A DNA stretch of 64,000 bases, from the NCBI RefSeq assembly GCF_018881855.1, contig NZ_JACVPN010000001.1:434001-498000 (forward strand), written 5' to 3'. The stretch comes from Polynucleobacter sp. MWH-Berg-3C6 (GTDB lineage: Bacteria > Pseudomonadota > Gammaproteobacteria > Burkholderiales > Burkholderiaceae). Under the pieces are notes generated by a model, which ran no database searches, had not been told where the DNA came from, and saw only the letters and a program-made list of their open reading frames with translations. This document shows, one piece after another, positions 303-39,064 of this stretch; the stretch's first letter is position 1; each line of letters begins with the position of its first letter. A program made the translations under genes and the position numbers.

Positions 303-1244
303 ATGCGTTCGAATAAAACTATCTATCTAGCCCAGCCGCGCGGCTTTTGTGCGGGAGTAGAGAGGGCCATTCTCATCGTTGAGGAGGCGCTGAAGAAATA
401 TGGCGCTCCAATTTATGTCAGACATGAAATTATTCACAATGCTTATGTCGTGAAAGATTTTGAGTCGCGTGGCGTCATCTTCATTAATGAGCTAGATGCG
501 GTGCCTAAGGGCGCAATTCTGATTTTTAGTGCACATGGCGTATCTAAGGCCGTTCGATATGAAGCAGATGAACGCCAATTCCAAGTATTTGATGCCACTT
601 GCCCATTGGTTGCCAAGGTCCATGCAGAAGTCGTCCGTTTAAAAGAACGTGGCTATCAGATCATTATGATTGGACATCGTGGTCACCCAGAAGTTGAGGG
701 CACTATGGGACAGGTTGATTCCTCAATTCATCTGATAGAGCATGTACAAGATGTCGATAAACTTTCTTTTGATGAGAATGAATTAATTGCTTATGTCACT
801 CAAACAACATTATCCGTTGATGAGACACAAGAAATTACTGCTGCCCTGATGAAGAAGTATCCACAGATTCATGCGCCTAAGCGTCAGGATATTTGTTACG
901 CCACTCAGAATCGCCAGGATGCTGTTAAGGCGATGCTTCCCCATGTGGATGTGGTCGTTGTAGTTGGCAGTCAAAATAGCTCCAACTCAAAGCGACTACA
1001 AGAATTAGCAAGTAGCATGAATGTCCCGGCGTATTTGGTTGATGATCCAAAGCAGATTCAGGCTGAGTGGTTTCAATCGATGAATAGCGTTGGGGTCACG
1101 GCGGGCGCATCTGCACCTGAGGCTTTGACAGCCCAAATAATTGAGGCAATCAACGGTCTTTATCGGGGTTCAGTAGTCCCAATGCTAGGGATTGAGGAAA
1201 TCGTGAATTTTTCCCTCCCTAAGGGTTTGCTGGAAGCGGCCTAA
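303..1244 (+). CDS. ispH: 4-hydroxy-3-methylbut-2-enyl diphosphate reductase (IspH/LytB)
   Basis: Last enzyme of the MEP pathway: a cytosolic [4Fe-4S] enzyme that reduces HMBPP to IPP and DMAPP. The 313-residue protein has the three cluster cysteines in their family contexts: C16 (PRGFCAGVERA), C100 (DATCPLV) and C198 (DICYATQNRQ). It also has the substrate-loop motifs AHGVS, GHRGHPEVEGT, TQTTLSVDE and SQNSSNSKRL. The ATG at 303 was chosen because homologues begin a few residues before AQPRGFCAG; the frame is open upstream to 249, but that would overlap puhE. No strong ribosome binding site is visible. Placed inside the photosynthesis cluster with dxs, it likely boosts isoprenoid supply for the bacteriochlorophyll tail and carotenoids. 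A second housekeeping copy elsewhere is probable but not visible here. Confidence 0.95.
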   Translation: MRSNKTIYLAQPRGFCAGVERAILIVEEALKKYGAPIYVRHEIIHNAYVVKDFESRGVIFINELDAVPKGAILIFSAHGVSKAVRYEADERQFQVFDATCPLVAKVHAEVVRLKERGYQIIMIGHRGHPEVEGTMGQVDSSIHLIEHVQDVDKLSFDENELIAYVTQTTLSVDETQEITAALMKKYPQIHAPKRQDICYATQNRQDAVKAMLPHVDVVVVVGSQNSSNSKRLQELASSMNVPAYLVDDPKQIQAEWFQSMNSVGVTAGASAPEALTAQIIEAINGLYRGSVVPMLGIEEIVNFSLPKGLLEAA

Positions 1245-12991: not shown

Positions 12992-13693
12992 ATGAATTTA
13001 TCTCGTCGAACATTCATTGCATCGGCCGCATTAGCTCCGGTAGCATGTGGCGTGCCTCTATCCTATGAGAGGGGTCTTCCCGTTGCTTCTCCCAAGCCGA
13101 CTCCGATGATTCGTCCTCCACAAATTGGTCAAGAGTGGACATACATCAAGAAAGATGTTTTTAATGGAAAGACTCTTGGGATTATTACGGAGCGTATTTC
13201 AAAAATTGGCTCGACTATTGTCCTCGATCGCAGTTCTGCAGATGGTGCGATGCTCCCTAGTGAGATTCAAACCTCTTGGGGCATGGTGGCTACTGATACG
13301 CAATGGCCACGCTTGCTGAACTTTAGCCCCTCATTACCGCTATGGCCGCTTGAACTCTCAACTGCTTGGAGCAAGCAATTTACTACCAAGTACAGTATTC
13401 CTGGTTTTTCTGAGTCAAGAATGAATTGGCAGGAGTATATGAGCGTGCAGGGCTGGGAGCAGATTACAGTTCCTGCAGGAGTTTTTATTGCACTCCGTTT
13501 TCAAACTCTGATCAATTTTGAAAATTCGGATCCGAATATCGTTGATTGCATTCGCAAAGAAACAGTTTGGTTTGCTCCTCAAATTGGCCGTTGGGTCGCA
13601 AGAGAGGCATCAGGCTCCTATCAAATAGCAGGTTCAATCGGTGCTGTGTTTCAAGAGGGTAGTTATCAGTGGCAACTAAGCTCTTATAAATAA
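12992..13693 (+). CDS. Tat-type signal, exported protein, paralogue of the next gene
   Basis: I do not recognise the family. The 233-residue product begins with a twin-arginine pattern (SRRTFIASAAL) and a possible but weak lipobox (PVAC, proline at -3), so it is probably exported folded. The rest has recurring blocks shared with the downstream gene: PPQIGQEWTYIKKDVFNGK, MLPSEIQTSWG, LPLWPLELSTAWSKQF, GWEQITVPAGVFIALRFQ and TVWFAPQIGRWVAREASG. The 'GQEWTY...VPAG.F....' pattern resembles beta-strand-rich periplasmic domains of unknown role. The stop codon overlaps the next start (TAATG). Confidence 0.8.
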   Translation: MNLSRRTFIASAALAPVACGVPLSYERGLPVASPKPTPMIRPPQIGQEWTYIKKDVFNGKTLGIITERISKIGSTIVLDRSSADGAMLPSEIQTSWGMVATDTQWPRLLNFSPSLPLWPLELSTAWSKQFTTKYSIPGFSESRMNWQEYMSVQGWEQITVPAGVFIALRFQTLINFENSDPNIVDCIRKETVWFAPQIGRWVAREASGSYQIAGSIGAVFQEGSYQWQLSSYK

Positions 13694-14406
13694 TGAAAAC
13701 AGACCGCTTACGAAAATTTCTAGTTTTGCTCCTGCCAATTATTTTGGCGGGGTGTATATCTGCGCAACCATTTCCTGAGGGCGTGAACGTAGCGCAGCCA
13801 ACATCTCCACCTGTCGTTAGGGCGCCCAAAGTTGGGCAGGAATGGGTATATCAGGTTCGCAATGTATTTAATCAAGCCATTATTGATACCGTAACTGAGA
13901 GAGTTGTCTCGGTTGGTAATGAAGTTCGTATTGCAAGATCGGGAATGAATGCCGGTCAACTACCAGATGAAATCCAATCGCCTTGGGGCGTCATTTTGCA
14001 AGATCCCCATTGGAATCCTCCCCAGACATTTCAAAAAGGAATCCCTCTTTGGCCGGAGCAATTACAAGTAGGTTGGTCTCGGTTCTATAACACCAAGTAT
14101 CAAGTGCTGAATTACCCAAACGCTAATTATTATTGGGGGCTAAGCATGGTGGCGAATAATTGGGAGCAAATCCAAGTTCCAGCAGGAAAGTTTCTGACGA
14201 TTCAATACCATAATGAAATACCTTCTTTTGAAAGTGATGACGTCTTTAGGATGGCAAGTTATCGTCAAGAGGATCTATGGCTTGCCCCCGAAATTGGGCG
14301 CTGGGTCATACGCAGAGGGTATGGACGCTATTTAATGTCTGGTGACTTTTGGACCACTGCTTACTGGGAAGATTATCTCCAATGGGAGCTAATCTCCTGG
14401 AAGTAA
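13693..14406 (+). CDS. Lipoprotein, paralogue of the upstream gene
   Basis: A 237-residue protein with a clear lipoprotein signal (LLLPIILAGC, cysteine at 21), so it is likely anchored in the envelope. The body aligns block by block with the preceding gene: APKVGQEWVYQVRNVFNQ, QLPDEIQSPWG, GIPLWPEQLQVGWSRF, NWEQIQVPAGKFLTIQYH and DLWLAPEIGRWVIRRGYG. The pair is a tandem duplication. One copy appears to use Tat, the other Sec/lipoprotein export. Function unknown. The start lies within the upstream stop codon, so translation is coupled. Confidence 0.82.
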   Translation: MKTDRLRKFLVLLLPIILAGCISAQPFPEGVNVAQPTSPPVVRAPKVGQEWVYQVRNVFNQAIIDTVTERVVSVGNEVRIARSGMNAGQLPDEIQSPWGVILQDPHWNPPQTFQKGIPLWPEQLQVGWSRFYNTKYQVLNYPNANYYWGLSMVANNWEQIQVPAGKFLTIQYHNEIPSFESDDVFRMASYRQEDLWLAPEIGRWVIRRGYGRYLMSGDFWTTAYWEDYLQWELISWK

Positions 14407-26373: not shown

Positions 26374-26568
26374 ATGTTGAGTTTAAAAGTATCTGGAATG
26401 ACTTGTGGGGGCTGTATTAATGCTGTTACTCGGGCGATTCAAGCCCAGGACCCAGGCGCCAAGGTTCAAGCAGATCTAGCTACTCAGACCGTCTCCCTTG
26501 ATACCACTCTATCCCAGGCCCAGGCCAGCCAGCTTATAACAGATGCCGGCTTTCCCGTTACTAATTAA
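26374..26568 (+). CDS. copZ: CopZ-like copper chaperone
   Basis: A 64-residue single HMA domain (SLKVSGMTCGGCINAVTRAI) with the GMTCxxC copper site at C11/C14. AAGAGG lies five bases before the ATG. Such proteins deliver Cu(I) to CopA. Divergence from copA across a 50-base gap suggests shared control. The CGGC variant of the motif (instead of CASC or CAHC) is acceptable for the family. Confidence 0.88.
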   Translation: MLSLKVSGMTCGGCINAVTRAIQAQDPGAKVQADLATQTVSLDTTLSQAQASQLITDAGFPVTN

Positions 26569-26635: not shown

Positions 26636-27283
26636 ATGTTCTTCAGTAAGTTAATGCCTCACGATGGTAATTTCTTCGAGCTGTTCAATCAGCACGCTAA
26701 CAGTATTGTTGAAGCGTCAGAATCTTTTTTAAAGTTTGTTGAACACTATAACGATGAAGCCCTTCGTGCAAAGTACACGCAAGAGGTGGATAAGGCAGAG
26801 CATGCCTGTGATGATGTAGTGAAAGAAGTACATCGCCGCCTACATAAAACATTCATCACCCCGATTGATCGTGATCAAATTTTTTCACTGATCAATACGA
26901 TGGATGATGTGGCTGACTTATTGCAGAATGGTACAGAAGCAATGCATTTGTACGATGTCAAGCAAACGACTCCTGAAATGCTGCAGATGGCTGAGTTATG
27001 TAACTAGTGCTGCCTTAGCGTCAGAAATGCAGTTGCTGCCTTAAAGGATATTTCTGATCCAGAGGTTGCTAAGGCAGCCCTTAAGACTTGTGATGAAATT
27101 GACCATCTTGAATCTGGCGCTGATCGCTTGCTATCAACTGCTATTACAAGATTATTCCGCGAAGATATTGAAGTGCGCGAACTCATTAAGTGCCAGCGTA
27201 TTTACGAATTGCTCGAGGAAGTTACTGATAAATGTGAAGATGTTGCCAATTTGGTTGAAGGCATCGTTCTTGAAAACTCTTAA
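26636..27283 (+). pseudogene. DUF47 (PhoU-like) phosphate transport partner, interrupted by an in-frame TAG
   Basis: The family protein is a ~215-residue PhoU-like helical partner of Pit transporters. Here the frame opens at ATG 26636 with AAGGA nine bases upstream and reads 123 residues (FFSKLMPHDGNFFELFNQHA..., TPIDRDQIFSLINTMDDVADLLQNG). It then meets TAG at 27005-27007. The same frame continues without shift for 91 more codons (VRNAVAALKDISDPEVAKAA..., RLFREDIEVRELIKCQRIYELLEEVTDKCEDVANLVEGIVL) to TAA at 27281. Both halves are clearly conserved coding sequence and total 215 sense codons plus the TAG. One substitution would restore the gene. It may be a recent nonsense mutation, a base-call error or a readthrough site. 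pit follows after 11 bases. Confidence 0.88.
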
Positions 27284-27294
27284 GGCGAATTAAA

Positions 27295-28305
27295 TTGCCA
27301 GCGACAGAAGTAGCTTTTTGGGTAGTAGCGCTATTAGTCATATTAGCGCTTGGTTTCGACTTCATGAATGGGTTTCATGATGCAGCGAACTCTATTGCAA
27401 CAGTTGTCTCTACTGGTGTTCTCAAGCCACAGCAGGCGGTAGTATTTGCAGCTTTCTTTAACTTCTTAGCAATATTTATTTTCCATCTGAGCGTTGCGGC
27501 GACAGTAGGTAAGGGCATTGTTCATCCTGCAGCAGTTGATTTGCATGTGATCTTTGGCGCTCTAGTTGGCGCCATTATCTGGAATGTCATCACTTGGTAT
27601 TACGGTATTCCATCAAGTTCCTCGCATGCTTTGATAGGAGGCTTAGTCGGCGCTGCCTTGCCTAAAGCGGGTACAGATGGCCTGGTTTGGTCGGGCATTA
27701 TTAAAACCGTTTCCTTTATTTTTATTTCTCCGTTTGTTGGATTCTTGCTTGGCTCCTTAATGATGTTGTTGGTAGCCTGGGTTTGCAAAAATGCTAACCT
27801 GGCAAAAACAGATCGCTGGTTCCGTCGTTTGCAATTGGTTTCAGCTAGTGCATACAGCTTGGGTCATGGCGGTAATGATGCTCAAAAAACGATTGGCATT
27901 ATTTGGCTACTGTTGATCATCACTGGTTATGCAGAGGCGAGCGCAAAAATGCCACCAACTTGGACTATTATTTCCTGCTACATTGCAATCGCTGTAGGCA
28001 CCATGTTTGGTGGCTGGCGAATTGTGAAAACCATGGGTCAGAAGTTAACTAAACTCAAACCAGTGGGCGGTTTTTGTGCTGAAACCGGTGGAGCTATTAC
28101 TTTGTTTGCTGCTACTGCAATTGGTATCCCAGTATCTACTACCCATACAATCACTGGGGCTATTGTTGGTGTGGGTTCGACCCAAAGAGCTAGTGCAGTT
28201 CGTTGGGGTGTGGCAGGAAACATTATTTGGGCTTGGATTTTTACGATTCCGGCAACGGCTTTGATGTCGATGATTGTTTATTACCTTAGCCTGCTCATCT
28301 TCTAA
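27295..28305 (+). CDS. pit: Inorganic phosphate transporter (Pit family)
   Basis: A 336-residue membrane protein with about ten hydrophobic helices. It carries both copies of the PiT signature: GFDFMNGFHDAANSIATVVST near residues 19-39 and SAYSLGHGGNDAQKTIG near residues 186-202. It imports metal-phosphate using the proton gradient. The start is TTG, 11 bases after the DUF47 gene, with AAGGCG upstream; no closer in-frame ATG precedes the first helix. DUF47-pit is a standard two-gene unit in which DUF47 is thought to modulate transport. Confidence 0.92.
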   Translation: MPATEVAFWVVALLVILALGFDFMNGFHDAANSIATVVSTGVLKPQQAVVFAAFFNFLAIFIFHLSVAATVGKGIVHPAAVDLHVIFGALVGAIIWNVITWYYGIPSSSSHALIGGLVGAALPKAGTDGLVWSGIIKTVSFIFISPFVGFLLGSLMMLLVAWVCKNANLAKTDRWFRRLQLVSASAYSLGHGGNDAQKTIGIIWLLLIITGYAEASAKMPPTWTIISCYIAIAVGTMFGGWRIVKTMGQKLTKLKPVGGFCAETGGAITLFAATAIGIPVSTTHTITGAIVGVGSTQRASAVRWGVAGNIIWAWIFTIPATALMSMIVYYLSLLIF

Positions 28306-28439: not shown

Positions 28440-29528
28440 GTGTCAGTTACTGTAGAAGCTGTTCAAGGGGCTCTTAAGAATTTGCTGGACCCCAATACTA
28501 AGATTGACTTTGTAACAGCTAAAAATCTCAAGAATTTGCGTGTTGAAGATGGCGATGTCTCATTCGATATCGTTTTGGGTTACCCCGCTAAAAGTCAGTT
28601 TGACTTGATTCGTAAATCTGTCATTAATGCTGTGCGAGAATTGCCTGGCGTTAAAAATGTCAGTGTAAATGTCAGTAGCCAAATTGTTGCGCATGCGGTG
28701 CAGCGCGGAGTGAAGTTATTGCCTGGCGTTAAAAATATTATTGCTGTTGCTAGTGGTAAGGGCGGGGTAGGTAAATCGACTACTGCTGTGAACTTGGCTT
28801 TGGCGCTCGCCGCAGAAGGAGCACAAGTCGGAATATTAGATGCCGATATTTATGGACCAAGTCAGCCAATGATGCTCGGCATTACGGGCCGACCAGAATC
28901 TATTGAAGAAAACACAATTGAGCCAATGGAAGGCCATGGTTTACAAGCCAGCTCCATTGGTTTCTTGATTGAAGAAGATGCACCTATGGTGTGGCGCGGC
29001 CCCATGGTGACCTCCGCTCTAGAGCAGCTTCTTCGTCAAACTCGCTGGCGTGATTTGGATTACTTAATTGTGGATATGCCCCCAGGCACTGGTGATATTC
29101 AGTTGACCCTCTCGCAAAAAGTGCCTGTTACTGGTTCTGTGATTGTGACCACCCCTCAGGATATTGCACTGTTGGATGCTCGCAAAGGATTAAAGATGTT
29201 TGAGAAGGTGGGCGTACCCATCATCGGCATTATTGAAAATATGAGTACTTATGTGTGTACAAAGTGTGGGCATGAGGAGCATATTTTTGGCGCGGGCGGT
29301 GGTGAAAAAATGTGTAAAGAATATGGCGTCGATTTCTTGGGCGCGTTACCACTGAATCTATCCATTCGTGAGCAGGCTGATGCTGGACGTCCAACCGTAG
29401 TTGCCGATCCTGATAGCGCTATTAGTGCAATCTATAAGAACATCGCTCGACAAGTTGCCATTCGTGTTGCCACTCTGTCAAAAGATATGAGTAGTAAATT
29501 TCCAAGCATTGTTGTTCAAAACACTTAA
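28440..29528 (+). CDS. apbC: Iron-sulfur cluster carrier ApbC/Mrp
   Basis: P-loop ATPase that carries and transfers [4Fe-4S] clusters. The 362-residue protein has an N-terminal MIP18/DUF59 domain (residues 1-~90). The Mrp domain follows, with the deviant Walker A GKGGVGKSTTAVNLA, ILDADIYGPSQPMMLG and the CxxC cluster-binding pair in CTKCGHEEH. GTG start, with AGGAGA upstream. It begins the + strand run that leads into the formate dehydrogenase accessory genes after a 14-base gap. Cluster delivery to that Fe-S-rich enzyme is a plausible reason for co-location. Confidence 0.93.
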   Translation: MSVTVEAVQGALKNLLDPNTKIDFVTAKNLKNLRVEDGDVSFDIVLGYPAKSQFDLIRKSVINAVRELPGVKNVSVNVSSQIVAHAVQRGVKLLPGVKNIIAVASGKGGVGKSTTAVNLALALAAEGAQVGILDADIYGPSQPMMLGITGRPESIEENTIEPMEGHGLQASSIGFLIEEDAPMVWRGPMVTSALEQLLRQTRWRDLDYLIVDMPPGTGDIQLTLSQKVPVTGSVIVTTPQDIALLDARKGLKMFEKVGVPIIGIIENMSTYVCTKCGHEEHIFGAGGGEKMCKEYGVDFLGALPLNLSIREQADAGRPTVVADPDSAISAIYKNIARQVAIRVATLSKDMSSKFPSIVVQNT

Positions 29529-30641: not shown

Positions 30642-32732
30642 ATGAGTCAAAAATTAGTATGTAACTGCAATGGCACCATGCCTTTGGATGCAAAGGCGCT
30701 TGGCGTTCCAGTGCATCAGTCTCTATGCAGACAAGAGGTCGGCTCTTTTTTAAAGGCGCTCGATGGATCGGATTCTTTGGTTATTGCTTGCACCCAAGAG
30801 GGCGCGCTATTTAATGAATTAGCGGAGCAGTCAGAAAAAGCTTTAGTGGCCCCACTGCGTTTTGTCAATATTCGTGAGGTTGCTGGTTGGACTCAAGAGG
30901 CCAAACTATCCGGGCCGAAGATTGCCGCATTACTTGCTTTGGCGGATATGCCGGAAGCTGAGCCTGTTCCAGTTGTCAATTATGAAAGCCAAGGCCGACT
31001 CTTAATTGTTGGCGCAGGGTCTTTAGCACTGCATTGGGCAGAAAAGCTCGGCGCTTCATTAGATGTTTCTGTTTTGTGTACCGAGCCCGGTGATTTGCCT
31101 TTGGTACGCAACTATCCGATATATACAGGCAAAGTTACTAAGCTAGATGGTTACCTCGGTAATTTTTCCGTTGATTGGGATCTAGAAAATCCAATTGATC
31201 CAGAGATGTGTACTCGTTGTGGCGCTTGCGTTGAAGCTTGCCCAGAGAATGCGATTGACCTCTCGTTTCAGATTGATTTGAATAAATGTAAGTCACATCG
31301 TGCCTGTGTGACTGCGTGTGCAAGTATTGGCGCAATCTCCTTTGATCGCAAGGAGCGTGCGCGTAATGCAGAATTCGATCTAATTTTGGATTTACGTGTT
31401 GATCCTAAAATGCGCATGAGCCAAACGCCACAGGGATATTTCGCTCCGGGTAAGGATCCGCTAGATCAAGCATTGGTAGTCAATCAATTGTTAGAGATGG
31501 TGGGTGAGTTTGAGAAGCCAAAATATTTTGTCTACAACGAAAAAATTTGCGCCCATGGCCGCAACGGTAAAGTAGGTTGTAGTGCTTGTATTGATGTCTG
31601 CTCGACTGGTGCGATCAGCTCTTTATTTAAGAATGGCCAAGGCAGTGTTGAGGTAAATCCTAATCTTTGCATGGGTTGTGGAGCATGTTCTACGGCTTGC
31701 CCATCAGGTGCAATGCGCTACAACTATCCTAGCGTGCCTCATCAAGGTAAAGAGTTAAAAAAAATCGCTACCGTATTTACTGCAGAAGCTAAAAAGCTGA
31801 ATCAAGCTGCTGCGCCAAGTCTGCTTTTGCATACCTTAAAGGCCGGCACCCAAATGATTGATGGCTTGGGCCGTGTTGCACATGTAATGCCTAAACAATT
31901 TGAGGCTTTGCCGTCATTTGTGATTCCCTATGGCATAGAGCATATCGCCTCTACTGGTTTGGATCTATGGCTGGGTGCGCTCAGCTATGGTTTTGCTGAG
32001 GTAACCTTGCTTTTAAGTGGCGATGAAGATCCCGCCTATCGCGCAACGCTTGAAGAGCAGGCTCATCTTGCTAATGCGATATTGAAGGCTTATGGCTTTG
32101 ATGAGCGCATTCATTTAATCATGGCTCAATCAGCTGATGATTTACAAACAGTTTCTAAAGCAATGGGTGCTATGCGTCAGCGTGGCTCCTTGAGTGCAAT
32201 TTGCACCCCTGCAAGTTTTGGCTTATCCAATCAAAAGCGTGAAACGATTGAGGCAGTGCTTGAGCATTTGCAAAAACAAGCCAAGACTCCATTGCCAGAG
32301 GCGGGCGTTGCTCTACCCAGTTCATCTTTATTGGGCGGCCTCAATATCAACAAGGATGCCTGCACTTTATGTATGTCTTGCGTCAGCAGCTGTCCTGAGG
32401 GTGCGCTACTGGATAATCCAGATGAGCCAATCCTTTCATTCATCGAAAAGCAGTGCGTGCAATGCGGCATCTGTGCTCAGACATGCCCAGAGCAAGCTTT
32501 GACATTGAACCCCCGTTTGCAAACAGTAGAGCAGCGCAAACAAAGAATAACGCTAAACGAGACTCAAGCCTTTCATTGCATTAGCTGCGGCAAGCCCTTT
32601 GGAACCCTGAAGATGGTTGATCTGATGTTGACTAAGTTGGGTGCCCATGGCGCATTTGCGGGTGCGGCAATGGATAGACTCAAGATGTGTGGTGATTGTC
32701 GAGTGGTAGATATGGTGAAGAAAGAAACATGA
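30642..32732 (+). CDS. Multi-[4Fe-4S] protein of the formate dehydrogenase locus
   Basis: A 696-residue cytoplasmic iron-sulfur protein. It carries several ferredoxin-type CxxCxxCxxxCP cassettes: CTRCGACVEACPENA near residues 187-201, the CKSHRACVTACA variant just after it, CSACIDVC, CMGCGACSTACPSGA, CTLCMSCVSSCPEGA and CVQCGICAQTCPEQA. A final pair, CISCGK and CGDCR, resembles a zinc or rubredoxin-like site. A nucleotide-binding-like LLIVGAGSLALHWAEKLGA segment lies near residues 120-138. Family members sit next to formate dehydrogenase genes; roles in electron transfer or cofactor sulfuration are inferred. AAGAAGA lies before the ATG. Confidence 0.87.
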   Translation: MSQKLVCNCNGTMPLDAKALGVPVHQSLCRQEVGSFLKALDGSDSLVIACTQEGALFNELAEQSEKALVAPLRFVNIREVAGWTQEAKLSGPKIAALLALADMPEAEPVPVVNYESQGRLLIVGAGSLALHWAEKLGASLDVSVLCTEPGDLPLVRNYPIYTGKVTKLDGYLGNFSVDWDLENPIDPEMCTRCGACVEACPENAIDLSFQIDLNKCKSHRACVTACASIGAISFDRKERARNAEFDLILDLRVDPKMRMSQTPQGYFAPGKDPLDQALVVNQLLEMVGEFEKPKYFVYNEKICAHGRNGKVGCSACIDVCSTGAISSLFKNGQGSVEVNPNLCMGCGACSTACPSGAMRYNYPSVPHQGKELKKIATVFTAEAKKLNQAAAPSLLLHTLKAGTQMIDGLGRVAHVMPKQFEALPSFVIPYGIEHIASTGLDLWLGALSYGFAEVTLLLSGDEDPAYRATLEEQAHLANAILKAYGFDERIHLIMAQSADDLQTVSKAMGAMRQRGSLSAICTPASFGLSNQKRETIEAVLEHLQKQAKTPLPEAGVALPSSSLLGGLNINKDACTLCMSCVSSCPEGALLDNPDEPILSFIEKQCVQCGICAQTCPEQALTLNPRLQTVEQRKQRITLNETQAFHCISCGKPFGTLKMVDLMLTKLGAHGAFAGAAMDRLKMCGDCRVVDMVKKET

Positions 32733-37728: not shown

Positions 37729-38784
37729 ATGAAACGATCATTTTCTAAAGTTCTACGCACTTTGATAGTGACGGCTGGCTTGTCGCTGACTCTGGCTAGT
37801 GGAATTAGTTATGCAGAGCGCGCAGCAATGGCGCCTTTGCCTTCTCCTAGTGGAGTTGATATTCCTCCTAAATCAGTACCAGCCAATCCCAATAGCCTAG
37901 CAAATGGGACTCAAGCTCAGGCGCAGCCAGCTAATCCGTCTATCTTTACTACTGCTAATAGCGATCCATACAACTATGTCAGCATTCCTGACAAAGAGGC
38001 TAGCGTTCTGATTCAGCGTTCTGGTGAACAGTGGCGCGTGATTCGTAATGGCGTAATTACTGTTTACGGTGGTTGGTTGTTAGCAATTGCATTCTTTGGT
38101 ATCGCTGCGATGTACATGGTTAAAGGTTCAATCAAGTTGCATGAACCGATGTCGGGCGTAAAAATTAAGCGCTTCAGCGCCTTTGATCGCTTTGTTCACT
38201 GGACTATGGCAGCAAGTTTCTTAGGTTTGGCATTTACTGGCCTCATGATTCTGTATGGTAAATATTTTGCAATGCCGATTATGGGTGGAATGGCGTATGG
38301 CTCGTTCTTAGATGTTTGTAAAAATATCCATAACTTCACAGGCCCGCTATTTACGATCTGTATCGTCGTTTTCTTCTTGCTATTTGCGCACAAGAATTTG
38401 CCTGGCAAGGGCGACCTGGATTGGTTTTTATCCTTCGGTGGAATTTTCAGTGGTAAGCATGTGCCAGCCGGCTTCTTTAATGGCGGCGAAAAAGTTTGGT
38501 TCTGGTTTGGTATGACTTTCTTAGGGCTGGTAGTTTCTGCATCAGGTTTTGTGCTCGATATGATCGTGCCATTCATGACGATTGAATACACACGCGGGAC
38601 TATGCAGATTGCTAACATCATTCATAGCAGTGCTGCAATCTTGATGTCAGCTATGGCTATGGGACACATCTACATCGGTACTATTGGTATGCAAGGATCC
38701 ATTGATGGTATGAAGACTGGTTATGTTGATGCTACTTGGGCTAAAGAGCACCATGAGCTCTGGTATGACAAATTGAATAAATAA
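37729..38784 (+). CDS. fdhC: Formate dehydrogenase gamma subunit (cytochrome b556)
   Basis: A 351-residue integral membrane dihaem cytochrome that takes electrons from the beta subunit to quinone. An N-terminal signal (~28 residues) and a Pro/Ala-rich periplasmic stretch precede four or five helices. Candidate haem histidines are in RFVHWTMAAS, NIHNFTGP, NIIHSSAAI and MGHIYIG. The ATG at 37729 is chosen over 37723 because AAGG lies eight bases upstream of it. The fused N-terminal domain resembles the FdoI/FdhC forms of Burkholderiales. Confidence 0.92.
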   Translation: MKRSFSKVLRTLIVTAGLSLTLASGISYAERAAMAPLPSPSGVDIPPKSVPANPNSLANGTQAQAQPANPSIFTTANSDPYNYVSIPDKEASVLIQRSGEQWRVIRNGVITVYGGWLLAIAFFGIAAMYMVKGSIKLHEPMSGVKIKRFSAFDRFVHWTMAASFLGLAFTGLMILYGKYFAMPIMGGMAYGSFLDVCKNIHNFTGPLFTICIVVFFLLFAHKNLPGKGDLDWFLSFGGIFSGKHVPAGFFNGGEKVWFWFGMTFLGLVVSASGFVLDMIVPFMTIEYTRGTMQIANIIHSSAAILMSAMAMGHIYIGTIGMQGSIDGMKTGYVDATWAKEHHELWYDKLNK

Positions 38785-38794
38785 GGACAAGGCC

Positions 38795-39064
38795 ATGAAA
38801 AAAATCATCGCTTTTACATTCTGTGCATTTACTGCGGCATCAGTTATGGCTGCATTGCCTCCTTTAACTCCAGAAGCGCAAGAGGCTGCAACATTAGCTA
38901 AAGCAAAAGCCGCTTACGGCGATAGGATGGGAGCATTTCAGCTCTGCCAAGCGCAAAATCGAGTGGCTGATCGCTTTAGAGTGTCTGGTACAGCAGCGCC
39001 TGCCGCTTGTACAGCGCCGCCACCATTTGTTGCTCCTGTAGCGGCAGCACCAGCGGCAAAGTAA
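38795..39064 (+). CDS. Small exported protein at the end of the fdh operon
   Basis: An 89-residue protein with a Sec signal (IIAFTFCAFTAASVMA). It has a short Ala-rich helix (EAQEAATLAKAKAAYGDRMGAFQLCQAQNRVAD) with a cysteine, a second cysteine later, and a Pro/Ala-rich tail. The two cysteines could form a disulfide. I do not recognise a family. Ten bases separate it from fdhC, so it belongs to the same transcript. Function unknown; an accessory role in the periplasmic complex is inferred only from position. Confidence 0.75.
   Translation: MKKIIAFTFCAFTAASVMAALPPLTPEAQEAATLAKAKAAYGDRMGAFQLCQAQNRVADRFRVSGTAAPAACTAPPPFVAPVAAAPAAK

Follow-up and report, generated by a model that had tools for sequence, protein, structure and literature searches.

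The window, a stretch of 64,000 nucleotides from the draft genome of Polynucleobacter sp. MWH-Berg-3C6 (1.99 Mb in 28 contigs), carries on its forward strand a reading frame of the DUF47/PhoU_div family (26636-27283, 215 codons) that consists of 123 residues, an in-frame TAG and 91 further residues followed by TAA (Table 1). An earlier note, made from the sequence alone, had described an otherwise intact phosphate-transport gene split by this TAG, with conserved family sequence in both halves and a normal total length, and this description was borne out. Residues 1-123 match PF01865 at 8.5e-15 (55.1 bits, profile positions 10-120), and the part behind the stop does so at 7.5e-07 (29.1 bits, profile positions 144-214), both above the curated cut-off of 24.4 bits. 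A whole-genome search tolerating stops joined the two into one match (85.3 bits, profile positions 11-214, "1 TAG"), and the whole-genome profile search identified no other DUF47 match. The 215 codons equal the length of the gene in intact relatives, and neither a frameshift nor a second stop was found in the frame.

Table 1. Coordinates in the window of the interrupted DUF47 gene, pit and the flanking genes.
Feature	Position	Strand	Description
DUF47 gene, part 1	26636..27007	+	123 codons and TAG; encodes helices 1-3 and the beginning of helix 4
In-frame TAG, codon 124	27005..27007	+	glutamine codon (CAG/CAA) in intact relatives of the genus
DUF47 gene, part 2	27008..27283	+	91 codons and TAA; frame unchanged, sequence still conserved
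pit	27295..28305	+	PF01384, 336 aa; TTG start 11 nt past the DUF47 TAA; intact
Upstream neighbour	26374..26568	+	64-aa heavy-metal-associated protein; flank for finding genomes without the DUF47-pit pair
Downstream neighbour	28440..29528	+	ATPase; the other flank

The upstream neighbour presumably encodes a CopP-like protein and the downstream one what we take to be an Mrp/ApbC-like ATPase. For comparison with other genomes, 95 candidate loci were reduced to 71 in which both DUF47 and pit are nearly complete, and these to 45 distinct rows besides the window. The TAA, the 11-nucleotide spacer and the TTG start are found in the same arrangement in 64 of the 71 loci, and among the 46 rows no amino-acid change in Pit is private to the window. 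The PstS and PhoU genes are open in the window's genome as well, which suggests that another route of phosphate uptake may be available.

The closest relatives of the first half belong to Polynucleobacter species or to beta-proteobacterial and Burkholderiaceae MAGs (87-95% identity). DUF47 is present in 76 of 186 Polynucleobacter genomes, the copy in one of them (G203) being incomplete, and only the window copy has an internal stop. In the 74 DUF47 loci aligned at 70% identity or more, some species having been fetched twice, codon 124 is CAG in 39 cases and CAA in 34, while one locus has no letters at this position. Thus the stop is absent from every relative examined, and a glutamine codon stands in its place in 73 of the 74 loci; more distant Burkholderiales loci have lysine or arginine codons there. 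An order-wide search, with matches in 138 of 399 genomes, yielded no other internal stop among the matches listed. The earlier note had named homologs that are naturally two separate proteins as counter-evidence; none was seen among the 76 copies of the genus, and the listed matches of the order, in which some kinds of split would be missed, show no other internal stop. All these comparisons are with other species, the window's own species being represented by one strain: the nearest genome of the genus shows 84% identity across the 927-base query, and for DUF47 and pit together the nearest row (L003) differs by 245 bases.

The position of the stop in the protein was analyzed with an AlphaFold2 model of the intact relative from G153, a sister species, built with 35 homologs (pLDDT 92, pTM 0.88). 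The model has six helices (residues 13-36, 41-69, 79-106, 113-138, 142-175 and 180-214) forming two three-helix bundles, and residue 124 falls early in helix 4, near the boundary of the bundles. Four aspartates (D90, D94, D198 and D202) show no variation among 36 intact sequences, and all four are still encoded in the window frame; the second acidic motif (D198/D202) lies after the stop. Such motifs, one in each half of DUF47/PhoU_div proteins, are worded as E/DxxxD (PMC5686610). Judged by the model, a truncated product would retain helices 1-3 plus a stub of the fourth, while lacking most of helix 4 as well as helices 5 and 6.

The earlier note had also proposed that loss of DUF47 would leave pit without its usual partner, and for the genus this holds. 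PF01384 matches were found in 82 of the 186 genomes, including 75 of the 76 with DUF47, the exception being G203 with its incomplete DUF47; in G056 the match is a short piece under the cut-off. Seven genomes have PF01384 matches without DUF47. Four of them (G019, G178, G195 and G197) contain only a long Pit encoded by open frames of 545-555 codons, which we treated as a different type, and two (G124 and G129) contain only fragments. The seventh, G006, was rejected as a case of Pit without DUF47, since its contig breaks off in the final codons of the DUF47 gene. Apart from G006, no complete short Pit without DUF47 was found among the 186 genomes. The G129 fragment is only 34% identical and was not counted as a remnant. 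In G124 a Pit remnant of residues 201-336, 93% identical, lies directly behind the copP-like gene (L213, G124:C1:833800-836400, about 781-1188, minus strand); here a deletion took out DUF47 together with the first part of pit. The two genes that flank the pair adjoin each other in G168. With DUF47 and half of pit deleted in G124, and with the flanks adjoining in G168, the pair can be lost in this genus and the loss is tolerated. No paper on the DUF47-pit pair in Polynucleobacter was found by title or by the beginning of the abstract, which is no proof of absence.

The second half of the DUF47 gene is still well conserved. Five of its 91 residues (127, 129, 130, 135 and 186) differ from the majority of the 45 relatives, and only the one at position 127 is not seen in any of the other 45 rows. 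Downstream of the stop, comparison of the window with its 15 nearest rows gives a pairwise pN/pS ratio of 0.062, and comparison of these rows with one another gives 0.028; the corresponding values are 0.054 and 0.048 before the stop, and 0.045 and 0.048 for pit. The window ranks first of the 46 rows in the share of non-synonymous change located after the stop and seventh of 46 when this share is taken relative to synonymous change. The ratios were picked after inspection of the data, and neither they nor the ranks count as proof of relaxed constraint. As the second half is still conserved and no second lesion is present, the lesion would be either young or, in the case of a base error, absent from the organism altogether.

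Among the three causes proposed in the earlier note, a nonsense change is best supported, a base-call error comes second, and amber readthrough found no support. The simplest account, which we regard as likely, is a recent nonsense pseudogene with a single-base change that is real in the organism. The change would have occurred on the species' own branch, turning a glutamine codon of DUF47 into TAG. Translation most likely terminates there, and the resulting product of 123 residues would comprise the first three-helix bundle and the stub of helix 4 but not the second bundle with its DKCED motif. The gene would then be a very young pseudogene, because such a product is probably non-functional. 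The intact pit downstream would be left without an accessory partner, and polarity may lower the expression of pit. The near absence of decay in the second half has to be set against this account, since it fits a very young lesion and equally a base error or undetected readthrough.

The main rival is a base-call or assembly error, in which case the cell would have a sense codon at this position and make a normal DUF47 protein. It is consistent with a difference of one base in a draft of 28 contigs and with a second half that is, save for a weak excess of changes, about as conserved as a working gene. To see how often such stops occur, we compared 464 kb of the window's genome (the window and 400 kb more, together about 23% of the total) with 480 kb from G153, using non-overlapping ORFs of at least 100 residues with 65% identity and 70% coverage and ignoring the first 40 and the last 15 residues. 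This filter was passed by 296 of the 432 ORFs of G153 and, in the reverse direction, by 298 of the 407 ORFs of the window's genome; the others lay outside the test. The DUF47 gene has the single internal stop among the 296 orthologous genes, and the one split match looks like a match to a paralog and not like a broken gene. The reverse comparison gave no internal stops and three split matches. The stop is thus the only one in 296 compared genes and in 76 copies of the genus, which goes beyond chance. With this single internal stop among 296 genes in the forward direction and none among 298 in reverse, the assembly seems otherwise clean, with few errors. The absence of internal stops from the tested part of the other 295 genes argues against a base error, and genuine nonsense changes are common in individual strains. 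We consider a base error rather improbable on this evidence, though worth keeping in mind.

A first, unfiltered comparison of the window with G153 had given 18 window ORFs with stops, six of which, including DUF47, were inspected. Two of the inspected ORFs (38548-38889 and 32234-32554) were discarded, as the matched frame looks antisense or like a spurious ORF, and in three further ORFs the stop lies within the first 20 residues, before the likely true start. The other twelve ORFs (47-69% identical, up to six stops each) were judged to be ghost ORFs without individual inspection.

Three further observations came from these comparisons. A 945-residue gene of the window's genome (L246, G000:C1 about 378498-381335) is 98% identical to its G153 counterpart (L208, G153:C1 about 562977-565800) over residues 114-941, while the earlier part is 62% identical and in a different frame, which may reflect recent recombination or a frameshift in G153. 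The G153 relative (L262, G153:C1 about 428564-429621) of a 479-residue gene of the window's genome (L241, G000:C1 about 276491-277930) is 95-99% identical and interrupted by about 1.06 kb, perhaps an insertion. At 12992-14403 of the window, two adjoining genes resemble diverged tandem copies, each G153 partner also matching the other copy at 37-43% identity.

Leaky or programmed readthrough of the TAG, yielding some full-length protein, would be consistent with the unchanged frame and the conserved second half, but the decoding machinery of the genome is the standard one. The earlier note had suggested looking for an amber suppressor tRNA: the genome search gave 39 tRNA matches, the anticodons of all 39 were read, and none is CTA. 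The gene for release factor RF1 is present and open (359 aa), and a second, weaker release-factor match, its open frame 361 long, probably represents RF2. In 237 compared gene pairs TAG terminates 35 genes of the window's genome, the relative ending in TAG in 21 of these cases and in TAA in 14. TAG is thus an ordinary stop here. Recoding is unlikely, because the 39 tRNAs include no amber reader, RF1 is intact and TAG ends these 35 genes normally; together with the lack of a further internal stop in the 296 genes, the same observations led us to reject a suppressor tRNA and loss of RF1.

A further point in favor of a leaky stop is a predicted hairpin just 3' of the TAG (arms 27006-27019 and 27068-27081, -30.4 kcal/mol). 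It folds better than 198 of 200 shuffled sequences, two folding as well (z -2.5), and its energy is the lowest of the 46 rows, the next being -29.8. Under a stricter control, in which codons were redrawn with the residues unchanged, 38 of 500 sequences fold as well or better, so that the hairpin is not significant, and windows from codons 61-73 likewise rank first among the rows. At codons 127-130 the window departs from its nearest relative in five bases, and four of these fit the hairpin, a pattern resembling template switching. Template switching was rejected as the origin of the TAG, whose T is not templated by the other arm. Also, the hairpin seems nearer to the stop than known readthrough stimulators, and it is treated as chance. 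A scan for promoters and terminators was uninformative. With no examined relative carrying the stop, we regard readthrough as very unlikely. Still more doubtful is a specific version of it, which has the hairpin as its only support: the UAG, placed at the base of a strong hairpin, would be a leaky stop from which a short PhoU-like protein of one bundle and small amounts of the full-length accessory protein arise, tuning Pit activity in this species.

That the gene now works as two pieces, through an internal restart of the second half or through survival of the first half as a small PhoU-like protein, is hardly credible: the stop does lie near the predicted bundle boundary, but the other 75 copies of the genus have no internal stop, and restart looks poor because part 2 contains no in-frame ATG and the first of its four in-frame GTG/TTG codons (leaving 51, 36, 24 and 10 residues), the TTG at 27128, leaves 51 residues, with no Shine-Dalgarno sequence visible in the preceding 20 nt.

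In summary, the stop has probably inactivated an accessory of a phosphate transporter in this freshwater bacterium; it resembles a commonplace gene loss of recent date, or else a sequencing error, and not a special mode of decoding. We infer that the base is real in the organism and that function is lost, with a possible effect on pit. Beyond annotation the finding is of little importance: the gene should be labeled a probable pseudogene, and not two proteins, and a working DUF47-Pit pair should not be assumed for this strain. If the base is real, the strain would be a natural case of a short Pit lacking a complete accessory protein, whereas elsewhere in the genus, in the genomes searched, the two co-occur or are both absent; such a strain could help to test whether Pit needs DUF47.

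The fold of the intact G153 relative is that of solved PhoU-like proteins: over the whole chain its model matches 3l39 (BT4638, Bacteroides) with TMq 0.89 and the chains of 2olt/2iiu (SO_3770, Shewanella) with 0.78-0.83, and 3l39 is matched by sequence too (8.6e-21). This likeness concerns the intact relative and not the cut product of the window. The window gene further resembles the DUF47/PhoU_div accessory proteins of Pit, PhoU2/PitR and OrfA (the OrfA of Sinorhizobium meliloti is, we assume, a DUF47 protein), in the family match of both halves, the length, the order of DUF47 and pit and, going by the intact relative, the six-helix fold; it differs in the TAG, which would remove the second helix bundle. 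The phoU2 (pitR) gene of S. aureus, listed as encoding a DUF47 protein, sits in the pit operon and was needed for a phenotype caused by a pitA mutation (PMC7326077), which supports a functional link of DUF47 with Pit. Other sources mention an orfA-pit operon in Sinorhizobium meliloti (PMC3131613) and DUF47 mutations in selection experiments with Stenotrophomonas and Staphylococcus (PMC11047544, PMC8788329). Although hardly any decay has so far accumulated after its stop, the window gene is otherwise like ordinary bacterial nonsense pseudogenes: it has a single lineage-specific stop in a conserved gene, in a genome without recoding machinery, and belongs to a pair that is missing from many members of the genus.
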